DNA from: Proteobacteria bacterium UBA6920 | Lineage (GTDB): Bacteria > Pseudomonadota > Gammaproteobacteria > SG8-11 | Reading direction: 5' to 3' | DNA length: 19,303 nucleotides | Assembly (NCBI GenBank): GCA_002448875.1 | Contig: DKAS01000130.1 | Coordinates: 125 to 19,427 of the forward strand | Shown here: positions 187 through 14,464 of the stretch, in pieces | How positions within the stretch are numbered: position 1 is the stretch's first letter | Layout of the letters: every line of letters starts with the position of its first letter | Translations under genes and position numbers: made by a program | Notes under the pieces: generated by a model | Databases searched by the model: none | What the model was told of the DNA's origin: nothing | The model's input: the letters and a program-made list of their open reading frames with translations, nothing else

Positions 187-495
187 ATGACAAAACCAGA
201 ACCCACGTCCGGTAATGAAGTTTTTGACGCCAAGCTGCATACTCTGCTGCGTTTGCCGCTGAAAACGCTGCAGCGCCTGGCGGTCAGCGCCAATGGTTTT
301 GTCTTCGATCCGTCGACTGGACAAAGCTATATGCTCAATGAGACCGGACTGGATTTGCTGCACCGCCTGCAGCAGGCGCCCGAACCCGCGGCGCTGATCG
401 AATCCCTGTTGCACGACTATGCGGTGACGCCGCGCGCCCTGGAGCGCGATCTTCTGGAGTTCGTCGGCTCCCTGCGCGAACACCTGGGAGTATAA
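187..495 (+). CDS. PqqD-like RRE (peptide-recognition) protein
   Basis: This 102-residue protein belongs to the PqqD family, whose winged-helix RRE domains bind leader peptides or hand substrates to partner enzymes in RiPP and related pathways. The typical core is visible: a beta segment with FVFDPSTGQSYMLNETG, a helix LDLLHRL, then a run of helices to the C-terminus (AALIESLLHDYAV, ERDLLEFVGSL). I chose ATG 187, with AGG 8 nt upstream, over an upstream TTG at 169. The next gene starts 4 nt after the stop, so it is probably co-translated with the ATP-grasp ligase. No radical-SAM enzyme and no obvious precursor peptide lie nearby, so the bound partner is unknown. The family call is fairly sure; the role as a recognition subunit for the two following enzymes is inference. 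Confidence 0.8.
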   Translation: MTKPEPTSGNEVFDAKLHTLLRLPLKTLQRLAVSANGFVFDPSTGQSYMLNETGLDLLHRLQQAPEPAALIESLLHDYAVTPRALERDLLEFVGSLREHLGV

Positions 496-499
496 GACC

Positions 500-1570
500 T
501 TGGTTTTTACCTCGACGGTCGCCGTTACCGGCCTGAACGCGCGGCCGGATAACCCGGGTCCGGGTCTGGCGGTGGCGCGCTGCCTGCGCGAGGCACCGGA
601 GTTCCGCGGCCGCATCATCGGCCTGTCCTACGACGCCCTGGATCCCGGCATGTATCTGCGCGACTACTGCGACGCGGTGTACCTCATGCCCTATCCTTCC
701 ATCCGCTCCAGCGACTATCTCAACCGTTTGCAGCAGCTGCAGACTCTGGAAAAGTTCACCTATCTGATCCCCTGTCTTGACGTCGAACTGCCGGGATTTT
801 CCCGCGCCAGCGGCGAACTGGCGGCCATGGGCGTGCATACCTTTCTGCCTACCCATGAACAGCTGCGTATGCGCAACAAAGACAATCTGGAACAGCTGGG
901 ACAGCTGGCCGGCATTCGCACCCCGCGCACGGCGGTGGTGACACGGCGCGATTTTTTTCAGCACTGCGAACGCGACGGCTGGCGCTACCCGCTGGTGGTC
1001 AAAGGCATCTACTACGATGCCCGCATCGTCGATAACCGGCACGACGCGGAACAGGTGTTCCAGGACATTGCCGCCCACTGGGGCTTTCCCGTCATCGTCC
1101 AGGAAATGATCAAAGGCCAGGAGTACAATCTCACCGCCGTGGGTGACGGCCAAGGCCGGCTGTACAACCCGGTGATGATGAAAAAACTGGCAACCACGGA
1201 CAAAGGCAAGGCCTGGGCCGGCGTAACGATAGAAGACGAAACCCTGCTGGCGGCCAGTCGCAACCTGGCGGCGGCGCTCAACTGGCGCGGCCCCCTGGAA
1301 GTGGAGGTCATGCGCGACCAGGAAGGCGTCTACTATATCATTGAGATCAACCCGCGTTTCCCCGCCTGGATCTACCTTTCTGTCGGCAGTGGCGGTAATC
1401 TGCCCATGGATCTGTTGAAGCTGATGCACGGGGAGAGCGTGACAACGGTCACGCCGCGGCCGGGCATGCTGTATATTCGCTATGCAATGGAAACCATTGC
1501 CAGCATCGCCGATTTCGAAGCCCTGGTGGTCGACGGCGGCAAGTCCAGCAACGGTGCCCACTTGACGTGA
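500..1570 (+). CDS. ATP-grasp ligase
   Basis: The 356-residue product has the ATP-grasp fold, which joins a carboxylate to an amine or other nucleophile through an acyl-phosphate. An N-terminal pre-ATP-grasp domain (VAVTGLNARPDNPGPGLAVA, from about residue 7) is followed by an ATP-binding lysine region (PLVVKG, K168), the QEMIKGQEYN strand (about 201-210) and the metal/ATP site EINPRFPAW (E282, N284, R286). It resembles the carbamoyl-phosphate-synthase/PylC-like group more than biotin carboxylase. The start is TTG 500, with GGAG 9 nt upstream and the conserved N-terminal domain beginning at once; no nearby ATG fits. It lies between the RRE gene and the PLP decarboxylase (4 nt gap), so ligation and decarboxylation may act on the same substrate. 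The substrate cannot be read from the sequence. Confidence 0.85.
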   Translation: MVFTSTVAVTGLNARPDNPGPGLAVARCLREAPEFRGRIIGLSYDALDPGMYLRDYCDAVYLMPYPSIRSSDYLNRLQQLQTLEKFTYLIPCLDVELPGFSRASGELAAMGVHTFLPTHEQLRMRNKDNLEQLGQLAGIRTPRTAVVTRRDFFQHCERDGWRYPLVVKGIYYDARIVDNRHDAEQVFQDIAAHWGFPVIVQEMIKGQEYNLTAVGDGQGRLYNPVMMKKLATTDKGKAWAGVTIEDETLLAASRNLAAALNWRGPLEVEVMRDQEGVYYIIEINPRFPAWIYLSVGSGGNLPMDLLKLMHGESVTTVTPRPGMLYIRYAMETIASIADFEALVVDGGKSSNGAHLT

Positions 1571-1574
1571 TACC

Positions 1575-2975
1575 ATGAGCAAACAATCAAGAAAAAAGTG
1601 GCACAAACCGACGATGACGCCGTTTCGCATGGGCGGCATCAACAAGTTCGGCGGCACCGGCAAGGCCGTCTGGCGCGGCGAAATCGACGGGGTGACAATC
1701 AGCGATCTGCTGGCCGCCTGGGGCTCGCCGTTGTTCATCTATTCCGAACACACGCTGCGCCACAACTATGACAACTGCCTGCGCGCCTTCAGCGCGCGCT
1801 ATCCGCGCGTGCAACTGGCCTGGTCGTACAAGACCAATTATCTGAGCGCCATCTGCAACACCTTTCACCAGCAGGGCGCGCTGGCGGAAGTGGTATCCGG
1901 CTTCGAGTATGAAAAAGCCCGCAGTCTCGGCGTGCCCGGCGACAGCATCATTTTCAACGGCCCTTACAAGTCCCGCGAAATTCTGCGCCAGGCCATCGCC
2001 GACAACGCCTGCCTGCACCTGGACAACCTCGACGAGCTGTTCATGCTGGAAGAACTGGCGCAGGAAGCCGGGCGCAAGGTGGCAGTGGGTATACGCTTGA
2101 ATTTCGATACCGGCTACACCGAGCCGTGGAGCCGCTTCGGTTTCAATGTGGAATCGGGGCAGGCGATGGATGCCGTCTGGCGCATCCAGTCCAGCCGGCA
2201 ATTGCGGCTGCGTGGCCTGCACAGCCACATCGGCACCTTCGTACTCGAAACCAAGGCCTATGCCGCGCAGGCCAAACTGATGTGCGAATTCATGCGCCTG
2301 GCCGAGGAAAAAACCGAATGCCGCATCGACTACCTCGATTTCGGTGGCGGCTTCGCTTCGATGAATTCCCTGCAGGGAGTATATCTGCCGCCGGATCAGG
2401 TGGTTCCCAGCCTCGACCAGTACGCCGACGCCATCTGCGACGTGGTGCTGGAAATGACCCATGAGCGTGAGGCGCAGGGTCTGGCCCGGCCGTTGCTGAT
2501 AATCGAAAGCGGACGCGCCCTGGTGGACGATGCCGGTACCCTGGCGGCAACCGTGGTCGCCAATAAACGCCTGCCGGACGGACGCCGCGCCCTGGTGATG
2601 GACGCCGGTGTCAATCTGCTGTTTACCGCCTACTGGTACAACCATGCGGTGACGCCGACGGCGCCGCTGGAAGGCAAACCCGAGGAAACGGTGATTTACG
2701 GCCCCCTGTGCATGAATATCGATGTGCTGCGCTCGCAGGTCATGCTGCCGCCGCTGAATGTGGGCGAACCCCTGTTGTTTCATCCAGTGGGCGCCTATAA
2801 CAATACCCAGTGGCAGCAGTTCATCGAATACCGCCCCAATGTCGTGATGATCGCCGCCGATGGCAGCACCCATCTGATTCGCCGCAAGGAGGATCTGGCC
2901 AGCGTCACCGCGCAGGAAGAGCTGCCACCGCACCTGGCGGTCGCCTTCGGCAAAAACCGGCCCAGATTGTCATGA
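1575..2975 (+). CDS. Fold-III PLP decarboxylase, diaminopimelate-decarboxylase-like
   Basis: This 466-residue protein is a member of the Orn/DAP/Arg decarboxylase 2 (alanine racemase-fold) family, which uses PLP to decarboxylate D- or L-amino-acid centres. Visible landmarks are the PLP lysine in SYKTNY (K86), HSHIGT (216-221), the phosphate-binding GGGF (257-260), ESGR (311-314), GPLC (C379) and GAY (406-408). In classical LysA the Cys motif reads CES.D; here it is CMNID, so the usual substrate-contacting Glu is Met. This suggests a substrate other than diaminopimelate. The basic N-terminal extension (about residues 1-35) is also unusual. The gene overlaps the next by 4 bp (ATGA). Siderophore decarboxylases such as SbnH and PvsE are members of this family acting on amide-linked substrates and are reasonable analogues. 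The family is secure; the substrate is unknown. Confidence 0.87.
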   Translation: MSKQSRKKWHKPTMTPFRMGGINKFGGTGKAVWRGEIDGVTISDLLAAWGSPLFIYSEHTLRHNYDNCLRAFSARYPRVQLAWSYKTNYLSAICNTFHQQGALAEVVSGFEYEKARSLGVPGDSIIFNGPYKSREILRQAIADNACLHLDNLDELFMLEELAQEAGRKVAVGIRLNFDTGYTEPWSRFGFNVESGQAMDAVWRIQSSRQLRLRGLHSHIGTFVLETKAYAAQAKLMCEFMRLAEEKTECRIDYLDFGGGFASMNSLQGVYLPPDQVVPSLDQYADAICDVVLEMTHEREAQGLARPLLIIESGRALVDDAGTLAATVVANKRLPDGRRALVMDAGVNLLFTAYWYNHAVTPTAPLEGKPEETVIYGPLCMNIDVLRSQVMLPPLNVGEPLLFHPVGAYNNTQWQQFIEYRPNVVMIAADGSTHLIRRKEDLASVTAQEELPPHLAVAFGKNRPRLS

Positions 2976-5197
2976 AAAAACCGCTCGCCATGATCCTGGA
3001 ACCGGTGCGTACCATCCTCAAGGGATACGCCTCCATCCTGTTCCTGGAGTCTCCCTGGTCGGGCCTGCTGCTGCTGGCCGCCACCTTCTGGTATCCGCAC
3101 ATCGGTCTGTCGGGGCTGACCTCGGTGGGCGTCAGCTATATCACCGCCGTGGTGCTGCGCTTTCCCCAGGCGAAAAGCGAGATCTATGTCTACAACAGTA
3201 CCCTGGTCGGCCTGTCACTGGGGGCGTTTTTCCCGCTCAACGAATTTCTGGCGGTGATGCTGTTTTTTTCCGCTGTGCTGGCCACCCTGGTGACGGTGGC
3301 GGTAAAGAATGTGATGTACCGCCTGGACAATCTGCCGCCCCTGAGTCTGCCCTTTCTCATCGTCGCCAGTCTGAGCACCACCGCGGCCTATTCCCTGCCG
3401 GGCGCGCATCCGGCGCTGCAATTCAACACCCAGTTGCCACCGCTGCTGTCGCCGCTGGTGGACACCTTTCTCAGCACCCTGGGCGCCGTCTATTTCACTC
3501 CGCACCCGCTGGCCGGCCTGCTCATCTTTGCCGCCCTGCTGTTTGCGTCGCGGTATCTGGCCATTCTGGCCATCGTCGGTTATGCCGCCGGCGTTTTCGG
3601 CTTTCGCATCCTGGCCATTCCGCTGTCCAACGAACTGCTGGTCTGGACCGGCTTCAATTTCATCCTCACTACCATGGCCCTGGGTGGAATCTTTACCGTG
3701 CCGGGCCGGGCAAGTCTGGTGTTCGCCACCCTGGCGGCGGTGCTCACCGCCCCCCTGATACTGGTGGCGCAGAAAATCGTCCTCACCTACCAGATTCCCA
3801 TCATGGTTCTGCCCTTTGTCGTCATCACTACCAGCCTGCTGCTGGTACTGAAGAACCGGCAAACTATGGCCCCGCCCAATCTCACCGACCAGCCAGGCAT
3901 ACCGGAACACAACTTCGAGCGGGCGCGCCTGGCGGCGGTGCGCAACGGCAGAATGGACAGCATCTCTGTACTGCCACCCTTCTTCGGCGAATGGACGGTC
4001 TACCAGGGCATGGAAGGTCGCCATACCCATAAGAAACCCTGGCAGCACGCCCTGGATTTTTATGTCCTCAAACAAAACCGCAGCTATCAGAATTCCGGGC
4101 GGGCGGTGGAAGACTATCACTGCTACAACCTGCCGGTGGTTTCGCCGGTGCACGGCAGCGTGGCGCGCATCCTCGACAAGTTGCCGGACAACACACCGGG
4201 CGATGTCGACCTGGGCAACAACTGGGGCAACTTCATTCTCATTCGCCTGGACAGCGGGCTGCATCTGCTGCTGGCCCATCTGAAACAGAACAGCATCAAG
4301 GTGGCAGAAAACGACCGGGTCAAGCCCGGCAGCCTGCTCGCCCGCTGCGGCAATTCCGGCCGTTCGCCGCAGCCGCATCTGCACATGCACATCCAGACCG
4401 ATGCCCGTCTGGGCAGCGCCACCTACCCCTTTCACCTGTCCAGCGTCATCACCGCCACCGTGGAGCAGGACCACCTCTACCGCCTGACCTGCGTACCGCA
4501 GACCGGTGACAGCGTGTTGGCGATCGAACAGAATACGCCGCTGGCCCTGGACCTGCATTTGCCGGTGGGCCGCACTCTTACCTATGAAATCCGCAATGAG
4601 CGCGGCGATGACATGGGAGAAGTGGAATTCTACGTGGAATTGTCCCTGCAGAACCAGTACCGGTTTGTCAGCTCCGGTGGCGGCAGCAGCGCTTTTGAGG
4701 AAATTAATGGCGTGCTGGGTTTCTATGACCGCCGCGGCGGGAAGGACCGGATTCTGGACATGTGGCTGCTGGCCAACGGGCTGACGCCGCTGTCGGACAA
4801 GGCCAACAGCTGGCAGGATCAGCCCAGCGGTCTGTTGCTGCCGCTGGCGCCCTGGCAGCGCCTGGCCGTACAGCTATGGTATCCGCTGGGCACCGGCATC
4901 AACAGTTCCTATCAACGCGTCTGGGACGGCGACGCCGGCCACTGGCGGCAAACCGGCGTGCATCGTCTGCATTTCGGCATGTTCGGCTACACGGTCCAGA
5001 GCGAATCCATCCTGGTGCCTGAAGTCGGGTTCTCGAATTTTTCCCTGACCTGGGGCAAGCGCAGCCTTCACGCCAGCCTGAAACAGAAGGGACTGCGCGA
5101 GGACGAGGGCATTCCCGGCTGGAGTCTGTATGTCAATCGCCAGCCACCGGCGCCCGACCCGGAGCAAGAGGCGCGGATGAGGTCACGCCATGGTTGA
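2972..5197 (+). CDS. Urea-transporter-like membrane domain fused to M23 peptidase
   Basis: This 741-residue fusion starts at ATG 2972, overlapping the previous stop. Residues about 10-295 are a polytopic membrane domain of the urea transporter (UT) family, with hydrophobic segments at 29-42, 51-63, 92-111, 126-139, 178-206, 222-243 and 248-294. Residues about 335-490 form an M23/LytM-type domain: HTHKKPWQHALDF (H351, H353 or H359 with D362 as candidate metal ligands), LLLAHLK (H435) and GNSGRSPQPHLHMH (H469, H471). A further 250 residues, soluble and beta-rich by eye, are unrecognised. The M23 part is expected in the periplasm. M23 enzymes cut peptidoglycan peptides or glycine-rich links, while UT proteins are channels for urea-like solutes. 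How the two combine here is not known to me. The neighbours suggest a role in moving or processing the product of the upstream ligase and decarboxylase. Confidence 0.82.
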   Translation: MKKPLAMILEPVRTILKGYASILFLESPWSGLLLLAATFWYPHIGLSGLTSVGVSYITAVVLRFPQAKSEIYVYNSTLVGLSLGAFFPLNEFLAVMLFFSAVLATLVTVAVKNVMYRLDNLPPLSLPFLIVASLSTTAAYSLPGAHPALQFNTQLPPLLSPLVDTFLSTLGAVYFTPHPLAGLLIFAALLFASRYLAILAIVGYAAGVFGFRILAIPLSNELLVWTGFNFILTTMALGGIFTVPGRASLVFATLAAVLTAPLILVAQKIVLTYQIPIMVLPFVVITTSLLLVLKNRQTMAPPNLTDQPGIPEHNFERARLAAVRNGRMDSISVLPPFFGEWTVYQGMEGRHTHKKPWQHALDFYVLKQNRSYQNSGRAVEDYHCYNLPVVSPVHGSVARILDKLPDNTPGDVDLGNNWGNFILIRLDSGLHLLLAHLKQNSIKVAENDRVKPGSLLARCGNSGRSPQPHLHMHIQTDARLGSATYPFHLSSVITATVEQDHLYRLTCVPQTGDSVLAIEQNTPLALDLHLPVGRTLTYEIRNERGDDMGEVEFYVELSLQNQYRFVSSGGGSSAFEEINGVLGFYDRRGGKDRILDMWLLANGLTPLSDKANSWQDQPSGLLLPLAPWQRLAVQLWYPLGTGINSSYQRVWDGDAGHWRQTGVHRLHFGMFGYTVQSESILVPEVGFSNFSLTWGKRSLHASLKQKGLREDEGIPGWSLYVNRQPPAPDPEQEARMRSRHG

Positions 5198-6143
5198 GCA
5201 CCGGCGCCTCCACTGGCTGTGCGCCGCCACCGTGCTGGCGGCATGTCCGCTGCTCGCCGACGCCGGTGACGAACAACTGTATTTCAAACTGCTCTACGAA
5301 CAGAACACCACTGCTTACCAGTCCAGCGCCAGATACCGGCAGGCGCAGGGCCGTGGCACCTTCCTGTACCTGGATTACCTGGACCGCGGTGGCTTGATTC
5401 TTGGCAACGGCGAAAAAGTTCTGAACGCGCCCGACGACAGCCTGTACGTGCGGGAAGCATGTTCCGTCTACAGCGCCAGCGTCAATCTCAATCCGGATAA
5501 GCTGGCCGGCAAGTTGAGTATGCGCTACGACAGCTACCAGGTGCTGGATCGTAATGTCGTGGGCTTCACCTATTTTGACGGCAGCACCGGTCAATACGAT
5601 TATCGCGACGCTATCGACAGCCGCGCCTTACAGCTGTCCTACCTGAGCTACGCCGGGGATTTATACCTGGAAACCTCCTATGCGCAGACCCGGCTGCAGG
5701 CGAACCGCAGCGATATCGATGATCTCGCCCTGCGGCAGATCGCGCCTGGCATCGGCACCGATTTCAACCAGAACCAGGACTGGGCCCTGTTCCGCGCCAT
5801 CCTCATCGATCACGACGCCAGCAACCGCCTGCAGCGCAAACGCCACAGCAACGGCTTCCAGCTCAAGGTCACCCACTGGCTGCGCGCAGCCTACTACTAC
5901 CCCAGCAATCTGCAACTGGGTCTGCGCACCGGCCAGGCCCTGATGCCGGTGGACCTGGACGCCGCCGCCGTTTATACCGCGCCGGCCATGCTTACCCGCG
6001 CCTGGTCGGTCGCCGCCGAATGGAAGCTCAACCAGTACCTGCGGGCGATGCTGTATGCCGGCCGGGAGAATTTCGAAGCCGCGCAGACCATTGACAACTA
6101 CACGGCTAAAACACTGTATATGAACATTTCAGCGCTCTGGTAA
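5190..6143 (+). CDS. Putative outer-membrane beta-barrel protein
   Basis: I do not recognise a named family. The 317-residue product begins with a signal sequence (RRLHWLCAATVLAACPLLADA) with a signal-peptidase-I site after ADA (about residue 25). The LAAC stretch ending at C19 also matches a lipobox, so lipoprotein processing is possible. The mature chain is rich in alternating aromatic/polar strands (LYFKLLYEQ, TFLYLDYLD, LYLETSYAQTRL, LRAMLYAGREN) and ends in LYMNISALW, a C-terminal aromatic residue as in barrels recognised by the BAM machinery. The gene overlaps the UT-M23 gene by 8 bp and is followed after 13 bp by the TPR gene, so it is the probable outer-membrane component of this operon. 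Barrel assignment rests on pattern only. Confidence 0.6.
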   Translation: MVEHRRLHWLCAATVLAACPLLADAGDEQLYFKLLYEQNTTAYQSSARYRQAQGRGTFLYLDYLDRGGLILGNGEKVLNAPDDSLYVREACSVYSASVNLNPDKLAGKLSMRYDSYQVLDRNVVGFTYFDGSTGQYDYRDAIDSRALQLSYLSYAGDLYLETSYAQTRLQANRSDIDDLALRQIAPGIGTDFNQNQDWALFRAILIDHDASNRLQRKRHSNGFQLKVTHWLRAAYYYPSNLQLGLRTGQALMPVDLDAAAVYTAPAMLTRAWSVAAEWKLNQYLRAMLYAGRENFEAAQTIDNYTAKTLYMNISALW

Positions 6144-6156
6144 GGAGAATACGCTT

Positions 6157-6774
6157 ATGCACCTCAGGCTGCTCACTTTGTTGTTCTTGATTCTGGCGGC
6201 CCCGGCGTTCGCCGAGGAAAACCTCGATGACTTCTGGAACGAAAGCTACCGTCAGGAAGCCCTGGGCAAGTACCAGGCGGCCATGGAAGTCATGAACAAC
6301 TGGCTGCACCTGCATCCCAATCATGAATTTTCCATCATGCGGCGGGGCTGGCTGTATTACCTGCAGGGCAAGCACAATGAGTCCATCAAGGACTACCAGA
6401 AAGCTCTCAGCCTCAACGATAAATCACTGGAAGCGCGCCTGGGCATGATGCTGCCGCTGATGGCGCAGAACAAATGGCGGGAAGCCATGGTTTACGGCCG
6501 CCAGATCGACGAACTGGCGCCCTGGAACTATTACGCCCATGTGCGCATGCTGCGCTGCGAAGAGGCGCTGGAACAATGGAACACCCTGGCCGACCATGCG
6601 CTGCAGGTCTACCTGCGTTACCCCAGCGACGCCACCATCATCGTCTACCTGGCGCGGGCCTATGAAAAACTCGGCAATGCCAGAGGCGCGGAAAAAGCCT
6701 GGCTGGACGTGCTGGAAAGAGTGCCCGGCCATGTGGAAGCCAGCCAGTATCTGGCCAGCCACCACCGCCGCTAG
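6157..6774 (+). CDS. Secreted tetratricopeptide-repeat protein
   Basis: The 205-residue protein has a clear signal peptide (MHLRLLTLLFLILAAPAFA) cut before EENLDD. The mature chain consists of TPR-like helix pairs: about residues 30-60 (ALGKYQAAMEVMNNWLHLHPN), 64-92 (RGWLYYLQGKHNESIKDYQK), 98-125 and 165-196 (YLARAYEKLGNARGAEKAW). TPRs are protein-protein scaffolds, here expected in the periplasm. AAGGAG (6142-6147) gives a good ribosome site 9 nt before ATG 6157. It is the last gene of the operon, followed by a terminator-like hairpin. A scaffold linking the periplasmic M23 domain and the barrel protein is plausible but inferred. Confidence 0.8.
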   Translation: MHLRLLTLLFLILAAPAFAEENLDDFWNESYRQEALGKYQAAMEVMNNWLHLHPNHEFSIMRRGWLYYLQGKHNESIKDYQKALSLNDKSLEARLGMMLPLMAQNKWREAMVYGRQIDELAPWNYYAHVRMLRCEEALEQWNTLADHALQVYLRYPSDATIIVYLARAYEKLGNARGAEKAWLDVLERVPGHVEASQYLASHHRR

Positions 6775-6834: not shown

Positions 6835-6865
6835 GCTTGCCACCTGGCCAGGCAAGCGTATTTTT
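6835..6865 (+). terminator. Rho-independent terminator after the TPR gene
   Basis: A perfect 7-bp stem, GCTTGCC (6835-6841) with GGCAAGC (6851-6857), encloses a 9-nt loop and is followed by GTA and five T residues (6861-6865). It lies 60 bp after the TPR stop and before the lexA promoter, so it separates the six-gene operon from lexA. Confidence 0.65.
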
Positions 6866-6912: not shown

Positions 6913-6940
6913 TTGCCAGGCGCGCCTGACTGTATATAAT
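6913..6940 (+). promoter_or_regulatory. lexA promoter
   Basis: A -35 element TTGCCA (6913-6918, 5 of 6 to TTGACA) is separated by 16 bp from a perfect -10 TATAAT (6935-6940). The -10 lies wholly inside the SOS box, so LexA binding should block RNA polymerase directly. This is a sigma-70 type promoter for lexA-imuA. Confidence 0.75.
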
Positions 6941-6969: not shown

Positions 6970-7575
6970 ATGAAAGAACCCCTGACTCCCCGGCAGGAGG
7001 AAATCCTGCATCTGATACGGGAACATATCGCGCAAACCGGTATGCCCCCCACCCGGCTGGAAATCTGTGACCGGCTGGGATTTCGCTCCCCCAATGCGGC
7101 GGAAGACCATCTGCGCACCCTGGCGCGCAAGGGCTATATCGACATGCTGCCGGGAACCTCACGCGGCATCGTGCTGCGCGAAGACACCGGCCTGCCGCTC
7201 ATCGGCCGGGTGGCGGCCGGCGCCCCGCTGCTGGCCGAACAGAACATCAGCCAGCGCTACGCCCTGGATCCACGCCTGTTCCGTCCGCGCGCCCACTACC
7301 TGCTCAAGGTCCAGGGCATGAGCATGCGTGACGCGGGCATACTCGACGGCGACCTGCTGGCGGTGCACCGCAGCCGGGAGGCGCGCAGCGGTCAGATCGT
7401 GGTGGCGCGGCTGGATGACGAGGTCACGGTCAAGCGCTTCGAGCGCAAACGCAACCAGGTGCGCTTGTTGCCGGCAAATGCGGATTTCGCACCCATCGTC
7501 GTCGATCTCGAGCGCCAGCAACTGATCATCGAAGGTCTGGCGGTAGGCGTCATCCGCAATGGCGGACTGTCCTGA
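6970..7575 (+). CDS. lexA: LexA, SOS-response repressor
   Basis: LexA represses DNA-damage genes and cleaves itself when RecA filaments form. The 201-residue protein is full length. It has an N-terminal winged helix (about residues 1-70) with recognition helix [20 protein letters not shown], nearly the E. coli sequence. The self-cleavage bond is A83-G84 in RVAAGAP, the catalytic serine is S118 (GMSMRDAGI) and the lysine is K155 (VTVKRF). The start ATG 6970 gives the family N-terminus [13 protein letters not shown]; no strong ribosome site is visible. The E. coli-like recognition helix agrees with the CTGT-N8-ACAG box just upstream. imuA follows after 12 bp. Whether the genome holds a second lexA cannot be seen. 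Confidence 0.97.
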
Positions 7576-7587
7576 TGCGGATTATGC

Positions 7588-8214
7588 ATGGAACGTTTGC
7601 CGGGACAATTGCCTCTTTTTGCCGGTCTCTGGCGTGGTCGCGATCGGCCGCCGGCGGCCGTACCGGCACTGCCCACCGGCCTGCCGGAGCTTGACGCCGT
7701 TCTGCCCCACGGCGGCTGGCCGCTGGGCGCGCTGACTGAAATCCTGATCGACCGCGAAGGCATAGGCGAGCTGCGCCTGGTGATGCCTGCCCTGGCCCGG
7801 CTCAGCACGGAAGGCCGCTGGCTGGCCTGGATCTCCCCACCCTACATCCCTTATGCGCCGGCCCTGGTCAAGCACGGCATCGATATCAGCCGGGTCATGC
7901 TGGTGCGACCCAAGGCCGACAGCGATCACGGCTGGGCGGTGGAACAGGCCTTGCGCGCCGGGACCTGCGGCGCCGTCCTGGCCTGGCCACGCAGCGGCGA
8001 TAACCGCCGCCTGCGCCGGCTGCAACTGGCGGCGGAAGCGGGACGCTGCTGGGGACTGCTGTTCCGGCCCTTGAGCTGCGCGCGTCAGGCCTCGCCGGCG
8101 GCGCTGCGCCTGCGCCTGGAGATGAACAGCGACGCCTTGTGCGTCACCCTGCTCAAATGCCGCGGCGGCTGGCCGCGACAGCCGATCAGCCTGGTGCTGC
8201 CAGTGACAACATAA
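7588..8214 (+). CDS. imuA: ImuA/SulA-like translesion-synthesis accessory protein
   Basis: The 208-residue protein matches the ImuA family of RecA-like proteins, which act with ImuB and DnaE2 in damage-induced mutagenesis. The family signature near the N-terminus is present (LPTGLPELDAVLPHGGWPLG, then ALTEIL, about residues 29-54), followed by a RecA-like core (RWLAWISPPYIPYAPALVKHGID) and a C-terminal LRLRLEMN segment. A classical GxxGxGKT Walker A is not seen, as is usual for the family. The length suits ImuA better than the shorter SulA, although pseudomonad lexA-linked sulA genes are related. It is co-transcribed with lexA (12 bp gap). No imuB or dnaE2 follows: the next gene belongs to the resorcinol cluster. 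Confidence 0.82.
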   Translation: MERLPGQLPLFAGLWRGRDRPPAAVPALPTGLPELDAVLPHGGWPLGALTEILIDREGIGELRLVMPALARLSTEGRWLAWISPPYIPYAPALVKHGIDISRVMLVRPKADSDHGWAVEQALRAGTCGAVLAWPRSGDNRRLRRLQLAAEAGRCWGLLFRPLSCARQASPAALRLRLEMNSDALCVTLLKCRGGWPRQPISLVLPVTT

Positions 8215-8424: not shown

Positions 8425-9372
8425 ATGCGTAAAAAGGTGCTTGTAGTTTATTATTCCCAGACTGGGCAGCTCACTTCAATCGTTCACTCCCTCTGCCGTA
8501 CCCTTGCCGCTGATCACATCGACATCAGCTACGAAGCGTTGCGTCCGATGAAGGCTTACCCTTTTCCCTGGCCCCTGTGGAAATTTCTCGATGTGTTCCC
8601 CGAATGCGTCTATCTGGATGCGCCGCCATTGCAGCCTCTGCAGGTGGATCCCAGTACGGATTTCGATTTGATCATCATCGCCTATACGGTCTGGTTCCTG
8701 TCCCCGTCGCTGCCGATCAGCGCTTTTCTGCAGTCCGACGCCGGCCGGCGGCTGCTGCGCGGCAAACCGGTCATCACCCTCAGCGCCAGTCGCAATATGT
8801 GGCTGACCGCGCAAACCAAGGTGGTGAACCTGTTGACCGCGGCGCAGGCACGCTTGCTGGACAATATCGCGCTGGTGGATAGCGCGCCCAGTCTGGTCAC
8901 CTTCATCACCACGCCACGCTGGCTGCTGACCGGCAAGCGCGAGTCGACCGGCGGCTGGCTGCCGGCCGCTGGTATTGCCGCCGCGGATATCAGCGCCGCC
9001 GGCCGTTTTGGCCACGCCATCGCCGCTGCCCTGCTGGCCGCCACCGGTCCGCTGCATGGACCGCTACTCCAGGGTCTGGGAGCGGTCAAGGTCAATCCGG
9101 ATCTGATCGCCAGTGAACGTATCGGCCACCGCAGTTTTCTCCTGTGGGGCAGACTGCTGCGCGCCGCCGGCCCCGCCGGCAGTGGACGCCGCAAACCCCT
9201 GCTGCTGGTCTACCTGGTGTTTCTGGTGCTGATGATTGTCAGCGTGGTCCCCGTGAACATGTTGCTGCGAAAGTTACTTTCACCGTTTACCGCCAGCAGG
9301 GTACGGCGTTTGCAAACACACTATGAACAACCGTCCGGTTCCGCTACCTTCCGCATGCAGGAACGGCCGTAA
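8425..9372 (+). CDS. darA: DarA, flavodoxin-like dialkylresorcinol biosynthesis enzyme
   Basis: DarA-family proteins (annotated dialkylresorcinol condensing enzyme, later shown to aromatise the ring made by DarB) act on cyclohexanedione intermediates. The 315-residue product opens with a flavodoxin-like strand and phosphate loop, VLVVYYSQTGQ (about 5-15), then IIIAYTVWFLSPSLPI (a flavin-contact-like loop). A hydrophobic segment PLLLVYLVFLVLMIVSVVPV (258-277) near the C-terminus, followed by basic residues, suggests membrane anchoring. I chose ATG 8425, at the start of the flavodoxin strand, although the open frame runs upstream to 8275; the ribosome site is weak. The stop shares one base with the darB start (TAATG), indicating coupling. 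The family call relies mainly on the fold and this neighbour. Confidence 0.78.
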   Translation: MRKKVLVVYYSQTGQLTSIVHSLCRTLAADHIDISYEALRPMKAYPFPWPLWKFLDVFPECVYLDAPPLQPLQVDPSTDFDLIIIAYTVWFLSPSLPISAFLQSDAGRRLLRGKPVITLSASRNMWLTAQTKVVNLLTAAQARLLDNIALVDSAPSLVTFITTPRWLLTGKRESTGGWLPAAGIAAADISAAGRFGHAIAAALLAATGPLHGPLLQGLGAVKVNPDLIASERIGHRSFLLWGRLLRAAGPAGSGRRKPLLLVYLVFLVLMIVSVVPVNMLLRKLLSPFTASRVRRLQTHYEQPSGSATFRMQERP

Positions 9373-10520
9373 TGTCCGCGGTCTACATCACCGCCATGGC
9401 GGCCGAACTGCCCAATGCGCCGGTGAGCAACGATGAAATGGAGGCCATCCTCGGTCGCATCGGCGGCCAGGCCTCACGCGCCCGGCACCTGGTGCTGCAA
9501 CGTAACGGTATCCGCCAGCGCCATTACGCCATCGACAAACACAGCGGCCGCCTTACCCACAACAACGCGCAGCTCACGGCGGCGGCGGTGCGCAAACTCG
9601 ATAGCGACGCATTTTCCATTGACCACTGTCAGCTTCTGGCCTGCGGCACCAGCTCGCCCGATCAACAACTGCCCAATCACGCCGTCATGGTGCACGGTGA
9701 ACTGGGGATTCCTCCCTGCGAAGTCGTGGCCAGCGCCGGCATCTGTACCTCCGGCATGGCGGCGCTGAAGTATGCCTATCTGTCCGTGCTCGCCGGCAGC
9801 TGCAGTCATGCTGTGGCCACCGGATCGGAGCTGGCATCCACTTATATGCTGGCAAGAAATTTCGGCGTGGAATCGGCGGCGCGGGTGGAAGCCCTGAGCC
9901 GCGCCCCGGAAATCGCCTTCGAAAAGGACTTTCTGCGCTGGATGCTGTCCGACGGCGCCGGTGCCGCGCTGTTGCAGAACCGCCCTGCCGCCCGCGGCCG
10001 CAGCCTGCGCATCGACTGGATCGAGCTCTTTTCCTTCGCCAACCTGGCGCCGGCATGCATGTTCGCGGGGGCGCAGCAACAGGCCGACGGCCGCCTCATG
10101 GGCTGGCGGGAATTTTCCGGTCTGGGCGACGTCATCGAGCATTCGCTGCTCAGCGTGCAGCAGGATGTGAAGCTGCTGGATCGCCTGATCGTGCCGCTGA
10201 CCGTGGAGGCGGGCTTTACCGCCCTGCGTCAGCGGCGCGGGCCTTTGCCCGCGGAGCTGGACTATTTCCTGCCCCATTTGTCGTCGGAATATTTTCGCCC
10301 CAAACTGCAGCAAGGGCTGGACAACATCGGCGTGCGCATCCCCCAGGAAAAATGGTTTACCAACCTGGCCAGCCGCGGCAATACCGGCGCCGCCGCCATC
10401 TATCTGATGCTGGAGGAGCTGCTGCACAGCGACCGCTTGCACACCGGGCAGCGGCTGTTGTGTTTCGTGCCGGAAAGCGGGCGTTTTTCCGCCGCCTTTA
10501 TGCTGTTAACCGTAGTCTGA
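9372..10520 (+). CDS. darB: StlD/DarB-family ketosynthase
   Basis: This 382-residue KAS III-like enzyme belongs to the StlD/DarB family, which condenses and cyclises two acyl thioesters to a cyclohexanedione, the precursor of 2,5-dialkylresorcinols or stilbenes. The Cys-His-Asn triad is intact: C125 in SAGICTSGMAAL, H302 in YFLPHLSSEYF and N337 in LASRGNTGAA. Like other DarB proteins it has a long inserted region between the cysteine and histidine blocks. It is translationally coupled to darA. A small HTH-like gene follows after 17 bp with AAGGAG (10521-10526) upstream. The reaction is expected at the membrane or in the cytosol on ACP- or CoA-bound chains. Chain lengths cannot be predicted. 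Confidence 0.9.
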   Translation: MSAVYITAMAAELPNAPVSNDEMEAILGRIGGQASRARHLVLQRNGIRQRHYAIDKHSGRLTHNNAQLTAAAVRKLDSDAFSIDHCQLLACGTSSPDQQLPNHAVMVHGELGIPPCEVVASAGICTSGMAALKYAYLSVLAGSCSHAVATGSELASTYMLARNFGVESAARVEALSRAPEIAFEKDFLRWMLSDGAGAALLQNRPAARGRSLRIDWIELFSFANLAPACMFAGAQQQADGRLMGWREFSGLGDVIEHSLLSVQQDVKLLDRLIVPLTVEAGFTALRQRRGPLPAELDYFLPHLSSEYFRPKLQQGLDNIGVRIPQEKWFTNLASRGNTGAAAIYLMLEELLHSDRLHTGQRLLCFVPESGRFSAAFMLLTVV

Positions 10521-10537
10521 AAGGAGTACCGACAGCG

Positions 10538-10942
10538 ATGAAAATATCCGATGTGCCGCAGGATCGTAACTTAACCCTGCAGGGGGAACGCAAGGCCGTT
10601 TATGCGGTGGACGAACAGGGCCGCTACCGGGTGATCGCCTCCAGCGGCTGGGAAGTAGAAGAAACCGTCACCAGCCTGGCCGTCGATCACTATCGGGAGC
10701 TGGCGCAAAACGCCCGTTCCGCGGTCATGCATGGCGAGCTGGCGCCGCTGGCGTACCACCTGCACGCGCGACGCTATCAAGTGGTGACCCTGGCCCAGGC
10801 TACGGGTTTTTTCCAATGGCAGGTGCGTAGACATTGCCGGCCGCGGGTGTTCGCCCAATTGAACAAAAAAGTTCTGGCGCGCTACGCCGACGCCCTGGGG
10901 ATGAGCATCCAGCAACTGCAAGTCCTGCCGGTGGAGAAATAG
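10538..10942 (+). CDS. Small HTH-like protein of the resorcinol cluster
   Basis: I do not recognise this 134-residue protein. Its N-terminal half (residues 1-75) has a strand-rich opening (KAVYAVDEQGRYRVIASSGWEVEE) followed by a helix (VDHYRELAQNARSAVMHGEL). The C-terminal part (about 82-128) reads like a Cro/XRE-type helix-turn-helix: VVTLAQATGFFQWQVRRHCR, then VLARYADALGMSIQQLQ. ATG 10538 has AAGGAG 11 nt upstream; the open frame extending further upstream overlaps darB and is a shadow. It sits between darB and the BtrH-like gene (7 bp gap) in one operon. It could be a cluster regulator or a structural adaptor; the HTH assignment is by eye. Confidence 0.72.
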   Translation: MKISDVPQDRNLTLQGERKAVYAVDEQGRYRVIASSGWEVEETVTSLAVDHYRELAQNARSAVMHGELAPLAYHLHARRYQVVTLAQATGFFQWQVRRHCRPRVFAQLNKKVLARYADALGMSIQQLQVLPVEK

Positions 10943-10949
10943 ACCCGCG

Positions 10950-11981
10950 ATGACAACCCTGATTCAACGTACCGCTTCCCGTTCCCAGCAGGACTTCGAA
11001 CACCGGCACGCCGCGCACTGCGAAAGCGGTGTCATGTCTTCCCTGTTGCGCCATCACGGCCTGGACATTTCCGAAGCCATGGCCTTTGGCCTGGCATCCG
11101 CGCCGCTGTTCGTGCATCTGCCGTTCGTCCGGGTCGAGGGCTTTCCCCTGACCGCCTATCGGGCCGCGCCGGGCGCGATCATCCGCGGTCTGCAGAAAAC
11201 GCTGGGCGTGCGCATGCGCAGCGAGCGCTTTCGCGACCCGCAGGCCGCCGGCCGCCGCCTGGATACGCTGCTCGATCAGGGTCAGGTGGTCGGCGCACAG
11301 GCCTCGGTATACTGGCTGCCCTATTTCCCGCCGGACATGCGTTTTCATTTCAACGCTCACAATCTGCTCATCTACGGCCGTACAGGCGATGACTACCTGA
11401 TCAGCGACCCGGTAGCGGAACATACGGTGCGCTGCGCGCGCGAGCACCTGGACAAGGCGCGCTTCGCCAGGGGCATCTTCGCCCCCCGCGGCCTGCTTTA
11501 CTATCCGCAAGCCATGCCGCGGCAAGTGCATCTGGAAAACGCCGTGCGCCAGGCCCTGCGTAAAACCTGTTTTCTGATGCTGCGCACCCCCTGGTCCCTG
11601 ATCGGTGTCGGCGCCATACGCCGTCTGGCGGAAAGCGTGCGCCGACTGGCGGATCCGGCGCAGGATCCCCGCTATGCCCGCCTGTTCGTCAGCTTCATCG
11701 TGCGCATGCAGGAGGAAATCGGCACCGGTGGTGGCGGTTTTCGTTTTGTGTACGCGTCGTTTCTGCAGGAAGCCGGGCAACTGCTCGGGCGCAGTGAACT
11801 GGAATCAGCCGCTGTCGCCATGACCGCGGCCGGTGACGCCTGGCGGCAGTTTGCGCTGGCGGGGGCGCGTTTCTGCCAGCAGAAAGCGGGAGTCGGTCTG
11901 GACCAGCTGGCCACCGCGATGCTGGAATGTTACCAGCGCGAACACGCTGTATTTCGCCAGTTGGCCGCCATAAAAACCTGA
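10950..11981 (+). CDS. BtrH-N-type acyltransferase-like protein
   Basis: The 343-residue protein resembles BtrH N-terminal-domain proteins (with a DUF4872-like C-terminus). In butirosin biosynthesis BtrH moves an acyl group from a carrier protein to an amine, using a papain/C39-like fold. A matching triad is visible: C24 in AAHCESG, H137 in FHFNAHNLLIYG and D153 in LISDPVA. The C-terminal half (about 195-343) is helical with repeated RLAESVRRLAD and LARxA-type helices. It ends the + operon, stopping 4 bp before the stop of the oppositely directed CLF gene. With an ACP encoded nearby, transfer of an ACP-bound chain onto the resorcinol or another acceptor is a fair guess. The family is probable; the acceptor is unknown. 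Confidence 0.78.
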   Translation: MTTLIQRTASRSQQDFEHRHAAHCESGVMSSLLRHHGLDISEAMAFGLASAPLFVHLPFVRVEGFPLTAYRAAPGAIIRGLQKTLGVRMRSERFRDPQAAGRRLDTLLDQGQVVGAQASVYWLPYFPPDMRFHFNAHNLLIYGRTGDDYLISDPVAEHTVRCAREHLDKARFARGIFAPRGLLYYPQAMPRQVHLENAVRQALRKTCFLMLRTPWSLIGVGAIRRLAESVRRLADPAQDPRYARLFVSFIVRMQEEIGTGGGGFRFVYASFLQEAGQLLGRSELESAAVAMTAAGDAWRQFALAGARFCQQKAGVGLDQLATAMLECYQREHAVFRQLAAIKT

Positions 11982-11985
11982 TCCC

Positions 11986-12873
11986 TCAGTCGCAGCTTTC
12001 GATAACGAACAGGGCATAGCGCCCCTGCGGCGTGCGGTTGATGTGCAGCAGGGCGCCGCCGCTGAATGCCGCCGCCACGCCGGCGGGCGCCGTGGCATGA
12101 TAGCCCGTGTCACCCCGGTAATCGTTCAAGGTGCCAGCAGCGAAGTGCTGCATGATCTGCGCCTGCGCTTGCGCCTCGACGCCAAAGCCGAACGCCAGCC
12201 GTAGATTCCGCGCCGGCGGCAATTCCGCCAGACACTGAGCCAGCGCTGCGTCACTGTCGGCAAATGCGCAGTAAGTGAAACGAGCGCGGGCATTGGCCGG
12301 CGCGTTGCCGGTCCACAGCCAGTGGCTGGCTTCCGCCATCGGCGTTTGCGCCGGCAGTCCCAGTTGCCGGCGGTGATGCTGCAGGGGAAAGACGCATTCC
12401 TCCACCGCCCCCAGCAGGTACTGCGCCGCCGCCCCGGCTTGCGAAGCTTGAAACATCGCCAGATGCAATGCCGTTTCGAACGGCAGCGTGCGGTGCGCCA
12501 GCGTCAGGCCGCCGCCGGCCAAACCCAGTGCCTGGGCGACATAAAACGGCGCCATATTGTTGGTGATGTTCATGAAATCAAACGGCATCGGCGGCTGCCG
12601 GTCACGCAGTATGCGCTGGCTGACACTGATGACCTGGGCGATATTCCCCGGCGACACAAACAACAGTTCGCACTGCGGCGCAATGCGCGCATCGACGCTG
12701 CGCGCGCAATGGCCGGCACCGGCGAGGGCCAGGTGGATGAAATGATTCAAGCGTCGCAACTTGCCGCCCCACAATTCGGCAATCAGCGGCTTCAGATCGG
12801 GCGCCTGATCGGTCACCGGCCAGGTTTGCCGGCTGGCGGCGTAGATATACAGAGGATGCCGCAAGCTGTTCAC
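11986..12873 (-). CDS. Ketosynthase-like chain-length-factor partner
   Basis: This 295-residue protein matches the beta-ketoacyl-synthase N-terminal-domain family that accompanies FabF-like enzymes in aryl-polyene and resorcinol clusters and is annotated chain-length factor. It carries thiolase-like landmarks (QPPMPFDFMNITNNMAPFYVAQ, here residues 93-114 in part, and GGGLTLAHRTLPFETALHLA), but no cysteine stands where a KS nucleophile would be (about residues 121-138). It is therefore probably non-catalytic and pairs with the ketosynthase encoded just upstream. The start is GTG 12873, two bases after the KS stop, which implies coupled translation and a 1:1 complex. The C-terminal histidine motifs of a full KS are also lacking. 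The ratio and pairing are inferred. Confidence 0.78.
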   Translation of the reverse strand: MNSLRHPLYIYAASRQTWPVTDQAPDLKPLIAELWGGKLRRLNHFIHLALAGAGHCARSVDARIAPQCELLFVSPGNIAQVISVSQRILRDRQPPMPFDFMNITNNMAPFYVAQALGLAGGGLTLAHRTLPFETALHLAMFQASQAGAAAQYLLGAVEECVFPLQHHRRQLGLPAQTPMAEASHWLWTGNAPANARARFTYCAFADSDAALAQCLAELPPARNLRLAFGFGVEAQAQAQIMQHFAAGTLNDYRGDTGYHATAPAGVAAAFSGGALLHINRTPQGRYALFVIESCD

Positions 12874-12875
12874 CG

Positions 12876-14048
12876 TCAGTTGCCGTTACCCAGCAGAATA
12901 CTGCTGTTGTTGCCGCCGAATCCGAAATAATTGAGCATGAGAATACCATCGCCGAAGGCCAGGTGTTCACGCAATGGCGCCAGCATGATGTCGGCGTCCA
13001 TGCTGGCGAAGGTCGGCACTCCGGGCACAAACCCGCTGCGGATACAGGCCAGCAGGGTGATCAATTCGACCACCCCGCAGGCGCCCAGGGTGTGCCCCAG
13101 GTAAGGCTTGAGCGAAGTAAACGGCGGCAGCGGCGCATCGGCGTACAAGGCGCGCATGGCGGCGCCTTCGGCCTGGTCATTGTTGTCGGTGCCGGTGCCA
13201 TGGGCTTTGATCAGGGTCACCGCGCGCCGGTCCAGACCCGCGTCCGCCAGGGCCTGTTCCAGCACCCGGCGTATCGCCGTCGCATTGGCCGAGGTGATGC
13301 TGCCGGTATCGCAGGTATTGGCGCCGCCCAGCACCCGGAACGGCTGGCCGCCGTCGGCCGCCGGGCCCGGCCGGCAGCTCAGCACCACCGCGCCCACTGC
13401 CTCGCCCAGCACCGTGCCGTTGCGGGCGGCGTCGAAAGGCCGGCAGGCATCTGGGCTGAGCAGCATCATGGCGTGGAAGCCTTCGAAGGACAGGCGGTTG
13501 AATATTTCCACGCCCAGGACCACCGCGTGTTCATATACACCGGCGGCGATCATGCGCGCCGCCACCAGCAGCGCATTGGCGCTGGAGGTACAGGCGGTGT
13601 TGAAGGAAAACTCTTCGCCACCAAGGACAAAGTGATCTTTGACATGACCGGCGAGCACGCCGAAACCGACGCTGTACTGGGGCAGGCAGGTGCCATCAAC
13701 GAGCAGATCAGCGCGGTAGCGCCGTTCAAAATCGGAAATATCGCAGGCGGTGCTGCCGCAGAAAACGGCGGTGGCCGATCGCTCCGCTGCGCTCAGCTGC
13801 GCATCGGCCAGAGCCTGGGTGACGCTGAATTGGAGGTGGTCATAGAGCGACGACTCGGCGCCCTGAATTTCCGTGGATGCGAAACCGCAGTAAGGCGCGC
13901 CGGCCGACGCCGTATGCACCGAGTCTCGCAGGGACGGCGCCCGCCCGCCGTCACGGCAGGCGGCGCTCACCTGTTCGCGGCCATCGCCGAGGGCGCAGCG
14001 GATACCGCTGCCCCGGACATAAACCCTGCGCCTGCTTCCTGCCGCCAT
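12876..14048 (-). CDS. FabF-type beta-ketoacyl-ACP synthase
   Basis: The 390-residue enzyme is a KAS II-family ketosynthase that extends ACP-bound acyl chains with malonyl-ACP. The Cys-His-His triad is intact: C153 in FNTACTSSANAL, H283 in KAHGTGTDNND and H319 in KPYLGHTLGACG, with the conserved K314. GFGGNNSSILLG closes the protein as in other FabF enzymes. ATG 14048 follows the ACP stop by 11 bp. Gene order ACP-KS-CLF in one operon points to a dedicated chain-building unit for the resorcinol cluster. Ketoreductase and dehydratase genes are not in the window, so reductive steps, if any, would be supplied by housekeeping fatty-acid synthesis. Confidence 0.92.
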   Translation of the reverse strand: MAAGSRRRVYVRGSGIRCALGDGREQVSAACRDGGRAPSLRDSVHTASAGAPYCGFASTEIQGAESSLYDHLQFSVTQALADAQLSAAERSATAVFCGSTACDISDFERRYRADLLVDGTCLPQYSVGFGVLAGHVKDHFVLGGEEFSFNTACTSSANALLVAARMIAAGVYEHAVVLGVEIFNRLSFEGFHAMMLLSPDACRPFDAARNGTVLGEAVGAVVLSCRPGPAADGGQPFRVLGGANTCDTGSITSANATAIRRVLEQALADAGLDRRAVTLIKAHGTGTDNNDQAEGAAMRALYADAPLPPFTSLKPYLGHTLGACGVVELITLLACIRSGFVPGVPTFASMDADIMLAPLREHLAFGDGILMLNYFGFGGNNSSILLGNGN

Positions 14049-14059
14049 GACCCGCGCCG

Positions 14060-14326
14060 TTATTCCGGTTTTACCAGGTCCGCCAGGCGGTTGACCGTCT
14101 CAAACGCGCGCCTGGCTTCCTTGCTGTCGGTGATCTTGATGCCATAGCGCAGCTGGATGGCCATGGACAATTGAATGGCATCAAGCGAATCCAGTTGCAC
14201 ACCGGACTCCATGCCGAACAGCGGATCGTCGTCGCCGATAGTCTCCGGCGCCACGTCCTTGTCCGACTCCTCCACGATCATGCGTTTGAGCTGGGCCTTC
14301 AACGCCGTATCCAATGATCCCTTCAT
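14060..14326 (-). CDS. Acyl carrier protein
   Basis: This 88-residue acidic protein is a phosphopantetheine-binding carrier. The attachment serine is S47 in VQLDSLDAIQLSM, a clear variant of the usual DSLxxxEL motif. The rest forms the expected helices (TALKAQLKRMIVEES; AIQLSMAIQLRYGI; AFETVNRLADLVK). It lies directly upstream of the FabF-like KS and its partner and is presumably their dedicated carrier, and possibly the acyl donor for the BtrH-like protein. No strong ribosome site precedes ATG 14326. It may have its own promoter, since 138 bp with a TATACT box separates it from the permease gene. Confidence 0.92.
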   Translation of the reverse strand: MKGSLDTALKAQLKRMIVEESDKDVAPETIGDDDPLFGMESGVQLDSLDAIQLSMAIQLRYGIKITDSKEARRAFETVNRLADLVKPE

Positions 14327-14357
14327 GACTGCATTTGACTATTTTTACGACATCCAC

Positions 14358-14363
14358 AGTATA
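14358..14363 (-). promoter_or_regulatory. Possible -10 element for ACP-KS-CLF
   Basis: Reading the minus strand, TATACT lies 32-37 nt upstream of the ACP start and would give a leader of about 25 nt. No good -35 is seen at 16-18 bp. It is offered because the gap between permease and ACP is the only sizeable one inside the minus-strand cluster. Confidence 0.3.
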
Positions 14364-14403
14364 CACGAGATTCCGCCGCGCCAGTATGACCACCCCCACC
14401 CTG

Positions 14404-14428
14404 TCCCGCCCCCTGGCAGGGGACGGGA
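14404..14428. repeat. GC-rich hairpin, REP-like, between permease and ACP genes
   Basis: A 25-base imperfect palindrome pairs TCCCGCCCCCT with AGGGGACGGGA: ten pairs, one mismatch and a three-base GGC loop (five-base loop if the T-A closing pair is left open). It sits within a C-run-rich context (CCACCCCCACCCTGTCCC). No T-tract follows in either direction, so it is not a standard terminator. It resembles the GC-rich intergenic palindromes common in Gammaproteobacteria and could stabilise or attenuate the mRNA between the exporter and the chain-building genes. Confidence 0.55.
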
Positions 14429-14464
14429 ACGCGACGCGAACTTGTGCCTATATTATTGCAGGTC

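Follow-up and report, generated by a model that had tools for sequence, protein, structure and literature searches.

The stretch of DNA analyzed here (the window) comprises 19,303 nucleotides of Proteobacteria bacterium UBA6920 (contig DKAS01000130.1, positions 125 to 19,427), and its subject is a six-gene operon at 187–6774 on the + strand. The operon encodes a PqqD-family RRE protein (g1; RRE, recognition element of the ribosomally synthesized and post-translationally modified peptides, RiPPs), an ATP-grasp ligase (g2), a fold-III pyridoxal phosphate (PLP) decarboxylase (g3), a urea transporter (UT)-type channel fused to an M23 peptidase-like domain (g4), a predicted outer-membrane β-barrel (g5), and a tetratricopeptide repeat (TPR) protein (g6). 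Sequence comparisons make it likely that the g1 RRE docks on a conserved N-terminal tail of g3. We give roughly even chances to a broader proposal, that the lock between a lasso-type RRE and its leader has left RiPP biosynthesis. The leader motif would then sit on an enzyme, and the RRE would serve for docking, as a clamp in an assembly line that has no precursor and is coupled to a channel. The line would end in this urea-type channel with its cytoplasmic M23 domain. TetR-RRE fusions would be transcription factors that read their own enzyme.

The decarboxylase carries a leader-like tail

The decarboxylase g3 (1575–2975, +; 466 aa) matches PF02784 (E 6e-29) and PF00278 (E 3e-14). FslC is its best match among Protein Data Bank (PDB) structures (E 1e-53), with LysA at E 1e-41, and in the alignments the g3 motif GPLCMNID has C-M where LysA has C-E, as in FslC. 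Because FslC is the nearest solved structure and shares the C-M, an acylated diamino acid would be a reasonable g3 substrate.

The LysA and FslC alignments to g3 start only at residue 36–37, and a tail precedes them. Its RRE-recognition-like portion (residues 1–26; 1575–1652, +) reads W9-H-K-P12-T-M ... G20 ... N23-K24-F25-G26. The tail consensus is K-x-[W/Y]-x-K-P-x-[L/I]-T-P-H-x-x-G-x-x-N-K-F-G, and W9, P12, G20, K24, and G26 are invariant in a 39-row tail alignment. Of the 120 database relatives that score best against g3, 118 have the motif [YW]xxPx[LVIFAM] near the N terminus; its background frequency is 15 in 770 60-residue windows. The gene calls of the two exceptions, P0125 and P0127, begin at an internal Met that hides the tail, and the P0125 match in the first scan was a chance match within the enzyme body. 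Five loci came through the motif scan without the motif. The L046, L089, and L101 sequences are truncated, the L053 tail reads SYEKPII, and the L043 tail was recovered by the tail profile.

The structure model of g3 (predicted local distance difference test score, pLDDT, 82.0; predicted template modeling score, pTM, 0.82) is confident over most of the catalytic body. The pLDDT is below 50 at residues 1–22 and 27–29 and in short stretches at 348–354, 379–387, and 407–417. Since the tail has invariant residues and yet its residues 1–22 score below 50, the model suggests a conserved, mostly disordered linear motif of about 26 residues, as expected of a docking motif.

Discrete lasso RREs recognize [Y/W]xxPx[L/V/I/F/A] (PMC13381572), YxxP is given as the lasso recognition sequence in PMC12710340, and YxxP plus a Leu fit a cleft of TfuB1 (PMC6784204). 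The resemblance between tail and leader comes from this published motif, not from a profile match. The window tail, WHKPTM, has Met at the last position, whereas the published set is L/V/I/F/A.

The RRE keeps most leader contact residues

The RRE protein g1 (187–495, +; 102 aa) matches PF05402 (PqqD) at E 1.9e-11 with 44.5 bits (cut-off 23.4), which identifies the PqqD fold. It reaches 35.2 bits against TIGR04353 (cut-off 35), and lasso PqqD models match below their cut-offs. The nearest solved relatives are two lasso RREs, TfuB1 (6jx3, E 7.6e-4) and TbiB1 (E 0.056). The leader site of LppB is lined by N33, D70, F74, and M78 (PMC13381572). These contacts were mapped by spacing onto 40 relatives of g1, a set that omits L090 and L096 (mis-anchored) and L045 (truncated) and keeps L038 (mis-anchored) and L088 (two-residue insertion) as they came. 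The Asn, which served as the anchor, was present in 40 of 40, Asp in 32, Phe in 38, and Leu or Met in 37. Rows without the Asp include L095, L097, L098, and L099, whose partner tail is WEPP; the same source describes the residue at the D70 place as not strongly conserved in W-type RREs. The contact residues are consistent with a working leader site and are not proof of one.

The g1 reading frames come in two sizes. Twenty of 43 are at least 240 aa with a long N-terminal extension (the L097 frame provisionally), and in the 14 extended frames that were aligned the N-terminal half looks TetR-like by eye. These frames raise the possibility of an enzyme-sensing gene switch, in which the RRE would read the amount or state of g3 through the tail and the TetR-RRE fusions would feed back on transcription. 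In the window, where the RRE stands alone, it would be either a relic or the partner of a different regulator. Profile scans covered four of the 14 aligned frames: L088 reaches E 2e-6 with TetR-family models and L074 only E 0.0028 with TetR_N, both short of the cut-offs, and L041 and L042 gave no match. The other 23 frames, including that of the window, are short, and a switch leaves the retained contacts of stand-alone RREs unexplained. We regard the switch as doubtful. The TetR-like domain is fused to the RRE at L040, L041, L042, L044, L074–L083, and L088, some of which are unaligned.

Tail and RRE occur together

Relatives of g3 were scored for both features if they had a minimum length of 380 aa and 1.8 kb or more of upstream sequence. 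Among 47 such relatives, 44 have the tail and an RRE gene and three have neither, a split that includes three rows (L097, L098, and L136) corrected by hand. The three are L136, which lies in a nonribosomal peptide synthetase-independent siderophore (NIS) context, L137, and L146; the L136 motif match, YGSPCF, belongs to the enzyme body and not to a tail.

A tail profile was then run against 15 genomes. It recovered g3 tails at 14 places in 12 of them, with E values no higher than 3e-7. The g3 tail of G020 reached only E 0.058, a level at which a diverged tail can escape notice. In the 15 genomes no open reading frame (ORF) other than g3 was found to carry the tail, the best of the remaining matches being at E 0.16. 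No tail match came from G404 and G430 (best E 1.03 and 1.41), two genomes with UT-M23 and no g3. Among ATG starts of 20–150 aa within 3.5 kb, the comparison found none that was conserved across families, and the 12 clusters shown contain three loci each.

A separate precursor peptide was rejected as the RRE ligand because no conserved small ORF was found nearby and no other tail carrier in the 15 genomes. The earlier note on this DNA had also reported no precursor peptide. The co-occurrence of tail and RRE and the same two negative results make g3 the simplest RRE ligand, and g3 as the partner would explain the missing precursor.

The RRE and ATP-grasp genes are a RiPP-like pair, and AsnB-like proteins, relatives of lasso cyclases, occur at L089, L095, and L097. 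A RiPP pathway with an unlinked or unrecognized precursor, in which the tail only resembles a leader, would account for both. The small-ORF comparison and the tail-profile search speak against such a pathway, with the proviso that a precursor with a different motif would escape the latter, and we consider it quite unlikely.

The six genes form a conserved unit

The earlier note described six tightly packed + strand genes with gaps or overlaps of at most 13 bp. The ORFs at 187–495, 500–1570, 1575–2975, 2972–5197, 5190–6143, and 6157–6774 are separated by 4, 4, −4, −8, and 13 bp, and the PqqD, ATP-grasp, fold-III PLP decarboxylase, UT plus M23, and TPR families named in that note were all obtained as profile matches. 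The description given in the note is thereby confirmed.

The families recur together, and the six-gene set is a conserved unit, not a chance array. At 30 of 54 UT-bearing loci (window counted), all six genes share a strand and lie no more than 6 kb from the UT gene, and many of the other 24 loci are cut by contig ends. Among the 42 loci with at least 3.5 kb upstream, PqqD, ATP-grasp, and decarboxylase genes are each present at 38 (same strand, within 6 kb). The four loci without them are L051, L091, L094, and L054, the last with a UT only. A protein search with UT-M23 found 786 relatives at E 0.001 among 7997 candidates scored, and the best 120 of the 786 all have both domains.

Genome-wide co-occurrence was compared in two sets. 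The 369 same-class genomes include 16 with UT-M23, 14 with the decarboxylase (both at E 1e-100 or better), and 13 with both (Fisher p 2.6e-20). The 398 sampled same-phylum genomes include 36 with UT-M23 (E 1e-60), 39 with the decarboxylase (E 1e-80), and 33 with both (p 1.2e-38). The p values are overstated because the genomes are related, and 20 of the 36 phylum-set UT-M23 genomes come from one family, f207. The operon is nevertheless not rare at 36 of 398.

Exceptions were inspected individually. UT-M23 without g3 at E 1e-100 occurs in G233, G250, and G330 of the class set; the G233 contig starts at UT-M23, and G330 carries a g3 fragment at 1.2e-87. G366 (L135) has g3 without UT-M23, with a half-UT in its place. 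In the phylum set UT-M23 alone occurs in G404, G430, and G523 (a fragment), and g3 alone in G401 (L146), in G418, G477, and G516 (L147–L149), and in G528 and G549 (L150 and L151), whose contigs stop short of the place where a UT gene would lie.

The barrel and TPR genes vary in position. Their order is swapped at L041, L042, and L044, they lie upstream at L090, L096, L098, and L099 and on the opposite strand at L092 and L100, and the pair was not found at L047, L048, and L053. The core is the RRE, ligase, and decarboxylase, UT-M23 is a near-constant partner, and the barrel and TPR proteins are a module. Flanking genes vary by eye among the loci listed. Response regulator and histidine kinase genes lie directly upstream of the operon at L041, L042, and L044, also by eye.

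Relatives named at source include Congregibacter variabilis, Kaarinaea lacus, and a Mariprofundaceae bacterium. A Methylococcaceae contig (L002) has all six genes, and an Ignavibacteriales contig (L004) begins at the operon and carries UT-M23 and TPR genes. Relatives of g3, where the source names them, are labeled alanine racemase or diaminopimelate decarboxylase. No description of the operon or of the UT-M23 fusion was recognized in searches of the open-license PubMed Central (PMC) literature, and one may exist elsewhere.

The channel probably faces the cytoplasm at both ends

The fourth gene (2972–5197, +) encodes a 741-aa protein in which UT (PF03253, E 3e-51) and Peptidase_M23 (PF01551, E 5e-11) profiles match a single chain, followed by a C-terminal β-rich region. 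VIA-align supports both the UT and the M23 fold; the rows listed reach hardly any of the β region beyond about residue 510. The UT channel domain (3005–3847, +; residues 12–292) is positively charged at both ends and is predicted to be N-in/C-in. This pattern places both channel ends, and hence the M23-like domain (3959–4441, +; about residues 330–490), probably in the cytoplasm, contrary to the periplasmic M23 of the earlier note.

The M23 domain keeps H469, H471, H436, and D362 in all 24 aligned rows, which are the HxH, the catalytic His, and the zinc Asp. Position 358, four residues before D362, is Q, R, S, or H, and is His in only one of the 24 rows; LytM has a His that binds zinc at this place. 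The first zinc His may be replaced by H353, which is invariant.

The reading first proposed, an envelope pathway in which the M23 domain is periplasmic and works on peptidoglycan, would draw on the M23 fold and the retention of most active-site residues. LysA-like and ligase genes are also found in wall metabolism, and two features of g4 taken up below, an invariant Cys pair and position 140, suit a periplasmic domain. The positive charge at both UT ends, the loss of His at position 358, and the occurrence of M23 relatives in wall-less haloarchaea make the envelope pathway highly unlikely. Membrane-anchored M23 proteins related to the UT-M23 domain were seen in haloarchaea and Thermus (L106:3578–4651, L107:2650–3609, and L109:1752–2615). 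A plasmid search with UT-M23 matched 29 records, none over 80% of the query, and the 20 matches listed begin at residue 283, the M23 part.

The pore differs from that of dvUT. The positions of Q24 and E187 are never Gln or Glu in 24 rows, and those of T130 and T294 are never Thr, with Ser at the T130 place in 23; we take these four to be the urea-binding pore residues of dvUT. Urease and urea carboxylase were sought in 46 of the 51 UT-M23 genomes of the class and phylum sets (all except G485, G523, G524, G543, and G619). Urease was found in nine, urea carboxylase above the cut-off in two, and neither in 37. Only above-cut-off matches were counted because TIGR02712 at E 0.001 matched all genomes and all 14 controls. 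The unspecific matches fall largely in the first ~440 profile positions, which are presumably biotin-carboxylase-like. Urea import was rejected for most hosts on account of the 37 genomes and the changed pore residues, and g4 is probably not a urea importer. A urea uptake system would fit the UT fold and the urease and urea carboxylase that the genome of the window encodes elsewhere, but the same pore and genome counts leave it scarcely credible.

Ligase, barrel, and TPR proteins

The ligase g2 (500–1570, +; 356 aa, with a TTG start as listed, putative) matches PF15632 (E 8.7e-11) and PF02655 (E 7e-7). Its sole PDB relative at E 0.001 is 2pn1 (E 3e-9), whose function is not stated. The g5 protein (5190–6143, +; 317 aa) has no match in Pfam or NCBIfam, and a protein search with it found only itself, so the family is visible through operon context alone as a conserved partner. 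An aromatic last residue is common in outer-membrane barrels. A C-terminal Trp is present in all 38 members of the g5 family (other operons plus the window), and g5 is predicted to be an outer-membrane β-barrel. The conserved partner g6 (6157–6774, +; 205 aa) matches TPR families and has a probable signal peptide by eye.

Variant arrangements exist at some loci. At L089, L095, and L097 an AsnB-type amidotransferase occurs downstream of UT-M23 with a half-length UT fused to TPR repeats, and at L135 the half-UT protein adjoins a divergent ATP-grasp gene and a tailed decarboxylase. These arrangements suggest a theme of small amide plus pore. At L089, parts of g3 lie at both contig ends, and no identical end overlap of 16–300 bases was found. 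A NodU-type carbamoyltransferase (L090:10417–12261) lies ~270 bases past UT-M23.

A proposed docked enzyme assembly

We propose, at about equal odds for and against, that an RRE-docked assembly of ATP-grasp ligase and decarboxylase produces a small amide, for which the channel is the exit. The enzymes would form a cytoplasmic assembly at the inner membrane, joined through a contact of the RRE-leader type. The g1 cleft, which lasso RREs use for leaders, would bind the flexible N-terminal tail of g3 and bring g3 either to the ligase or to the channel on its cytoplasmic side. The ligase would couple a carboxylate to an amino acid, which is probably a diamino acid, and g3 would remove the carboxylate of this amino acid, in the way that FslC decarboxylates citryl-ornithine. 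In the cytoplasm, the M23-type domain of g4 may trim or sense the product, and the small neutral amide would pass the UT pore. In most operons it would then cross the outer membrane aided by the barrel and the TPR protein. The order of steps, the outward direction, and the nature of the product are as we infer them. The interpretation of the earlier note, that a small amide or peptide made in the cytoplasm is moved or trimmed by an envelope assembly, is partly supported. It changes in that the M23 domain is probably cytoplasmic and the partner of the RRE is probably the decarboxylase of the operon.

Several observations weigh against this proposal. The docking of g1 on g3 is predicted from sequence, and the tails matched nothing in NCBIfam (nine tails) or among PDB chains. 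RREs for other leaders also commonly have the Asn and Asp, so these are not YxxP-specific, and W-type paeninodin RREs have Gly at the g1 Asn place (PMC13381572). Most operon tails carry Trp, yet their RREs have Asn, not Gly. The NCBIfam scores of g3 are nearly equal for FslC (N-citrylornithine decarboxylase; 215 bits, cut-off 500) and LysA (diaminopimelate decarboxylase; 207 bits, cut-off 298), and reach neither cut-off. In g4, the topology model puts position 140 (K/R in 18 of 24 rows) on the outside, and C384 and C459 are invariant in the M23 domain, where a possible disulfide would suit the periplasm. The channel is not strictly coupled to the enzymes, because L147, L148, and L149 have RRE, ligase, and decarboxylase genes with no UT-M23 nearby and L091, L094, and L051 have UT-M23 with no g1–g3 nearby.

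Comparison with known systems

The operon shares with lasso biosynthesis an RRE closest to TfuB1 and TbiB1 among solved structures, a [Y/W]xxPx[L/V/I/F/A] partner motif, and most of the contacts. It differs in that the motif is on an enzyme and not on a precursor, and no lasso-type B2 protease or AsnB-like cyclase is among the six genes; an AsnB-like protein was seen only at L089, L095, and L097. The precursor with a YxxP leader that marks a lasso cluster was found neither by the tail profile in 15 genomes nor among nearby small ORFs.

Rhizoferrin FslC and vibrioferrin PvsA/PvsE share the decarboxylase family and the C-M in place of the LysA C-E. Vibrioferrin clusters likewise pair an ATP-grasp enzyme (PvsA) with a decarboxylase (PvsE). 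A siderophore-like pathway would put the ligase in place of the NIS synthetase, with a chelator moved by channel and barrel in export or import. The closeness of g3 to FslC among solved structures fits such a pathway, as does the Mariprofundaceae relative, from a family of iron oxidizers. No IucA/IucC synthetase was found among the six genes with the profile libraries, in agreement with the earlier note. The FslC-like gene that does lie in a NIS context (L136, near an IucA/IucC gene) has no tail and no RRE, and no siderophore receptor was noticed in the neighborhood listings, in which no search was aimed at receptors. We judge a siderophore-like pathway very unlikely.

The N-acetylglutaminylglutamine amide operon pairs an ATP-grasp ligase with an AsnB-like amidotransferase. 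The L095 AsnB protein scores 213 bits against TIGR03104, short of the cut-off of 570, and the six genes of the window have a decarboxylase instead of AsnB. The g4 protein differs from dvUT, UT-A, and UT-B in its fused M23 and β regions, its altered pore residues, and its hosts, 37 of 46 of which lack both urea enzymes. In daptides, an RRE likewise serves a decarboxylation step (PMC10036551).

RREs serve as markers of RiPP clusters. If the g1 family binds an enzyme, RRE-based mining needs a precursor-less RRE class, and the lasso-style peptide clamp would be a natural protein-docking part. With g4, an M23 subfamily comes into view whose members may be cytoplasmic and have no action on the cell wall.

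Operon boundaries and neighboring genes

The earlier note bounded the operon by an AT-rich leader and a terminator. The leader, with a presumed promoter, is present at 61–186 (+; GC 0.317 at 61–180), and the promoter scan listed no sigma-70 match of at least 9/12 on its + strand. The terminator is only a weak candidate at 6835–6865 (+), seen by eye as a 7-bp stem and a 9-base loop followed by GTATTTTT. The terminator scan listed none downstream of g6, and the stretch folded in isolation adopts a different structure from the by-eye stem, which leaves its fold ambiguous. The operon probably ends at 6774 because the next + strand gene, at 6970, is lexA-like (PF01726).

The lexA-like gene (PF01726, PF00717) is followed by a SulA-family gene, possibly ImuA-like (PF03846), within 6970–8214, and a promoter match, TTGCCA-16-TATAAT, lies ahead of it at 6913–6940. 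A second possible biosynthetic group occupies 9372–16622 of the window. It comprises KAS-like proteins at 9372–10520 and 12876–14048, a BtrH_N/DUF4872 protein at 10950–11981, a small acyl carrier protein (ACP) at 14060–14326, and an ABC-2 permease with an ATPase at 14465–16622.

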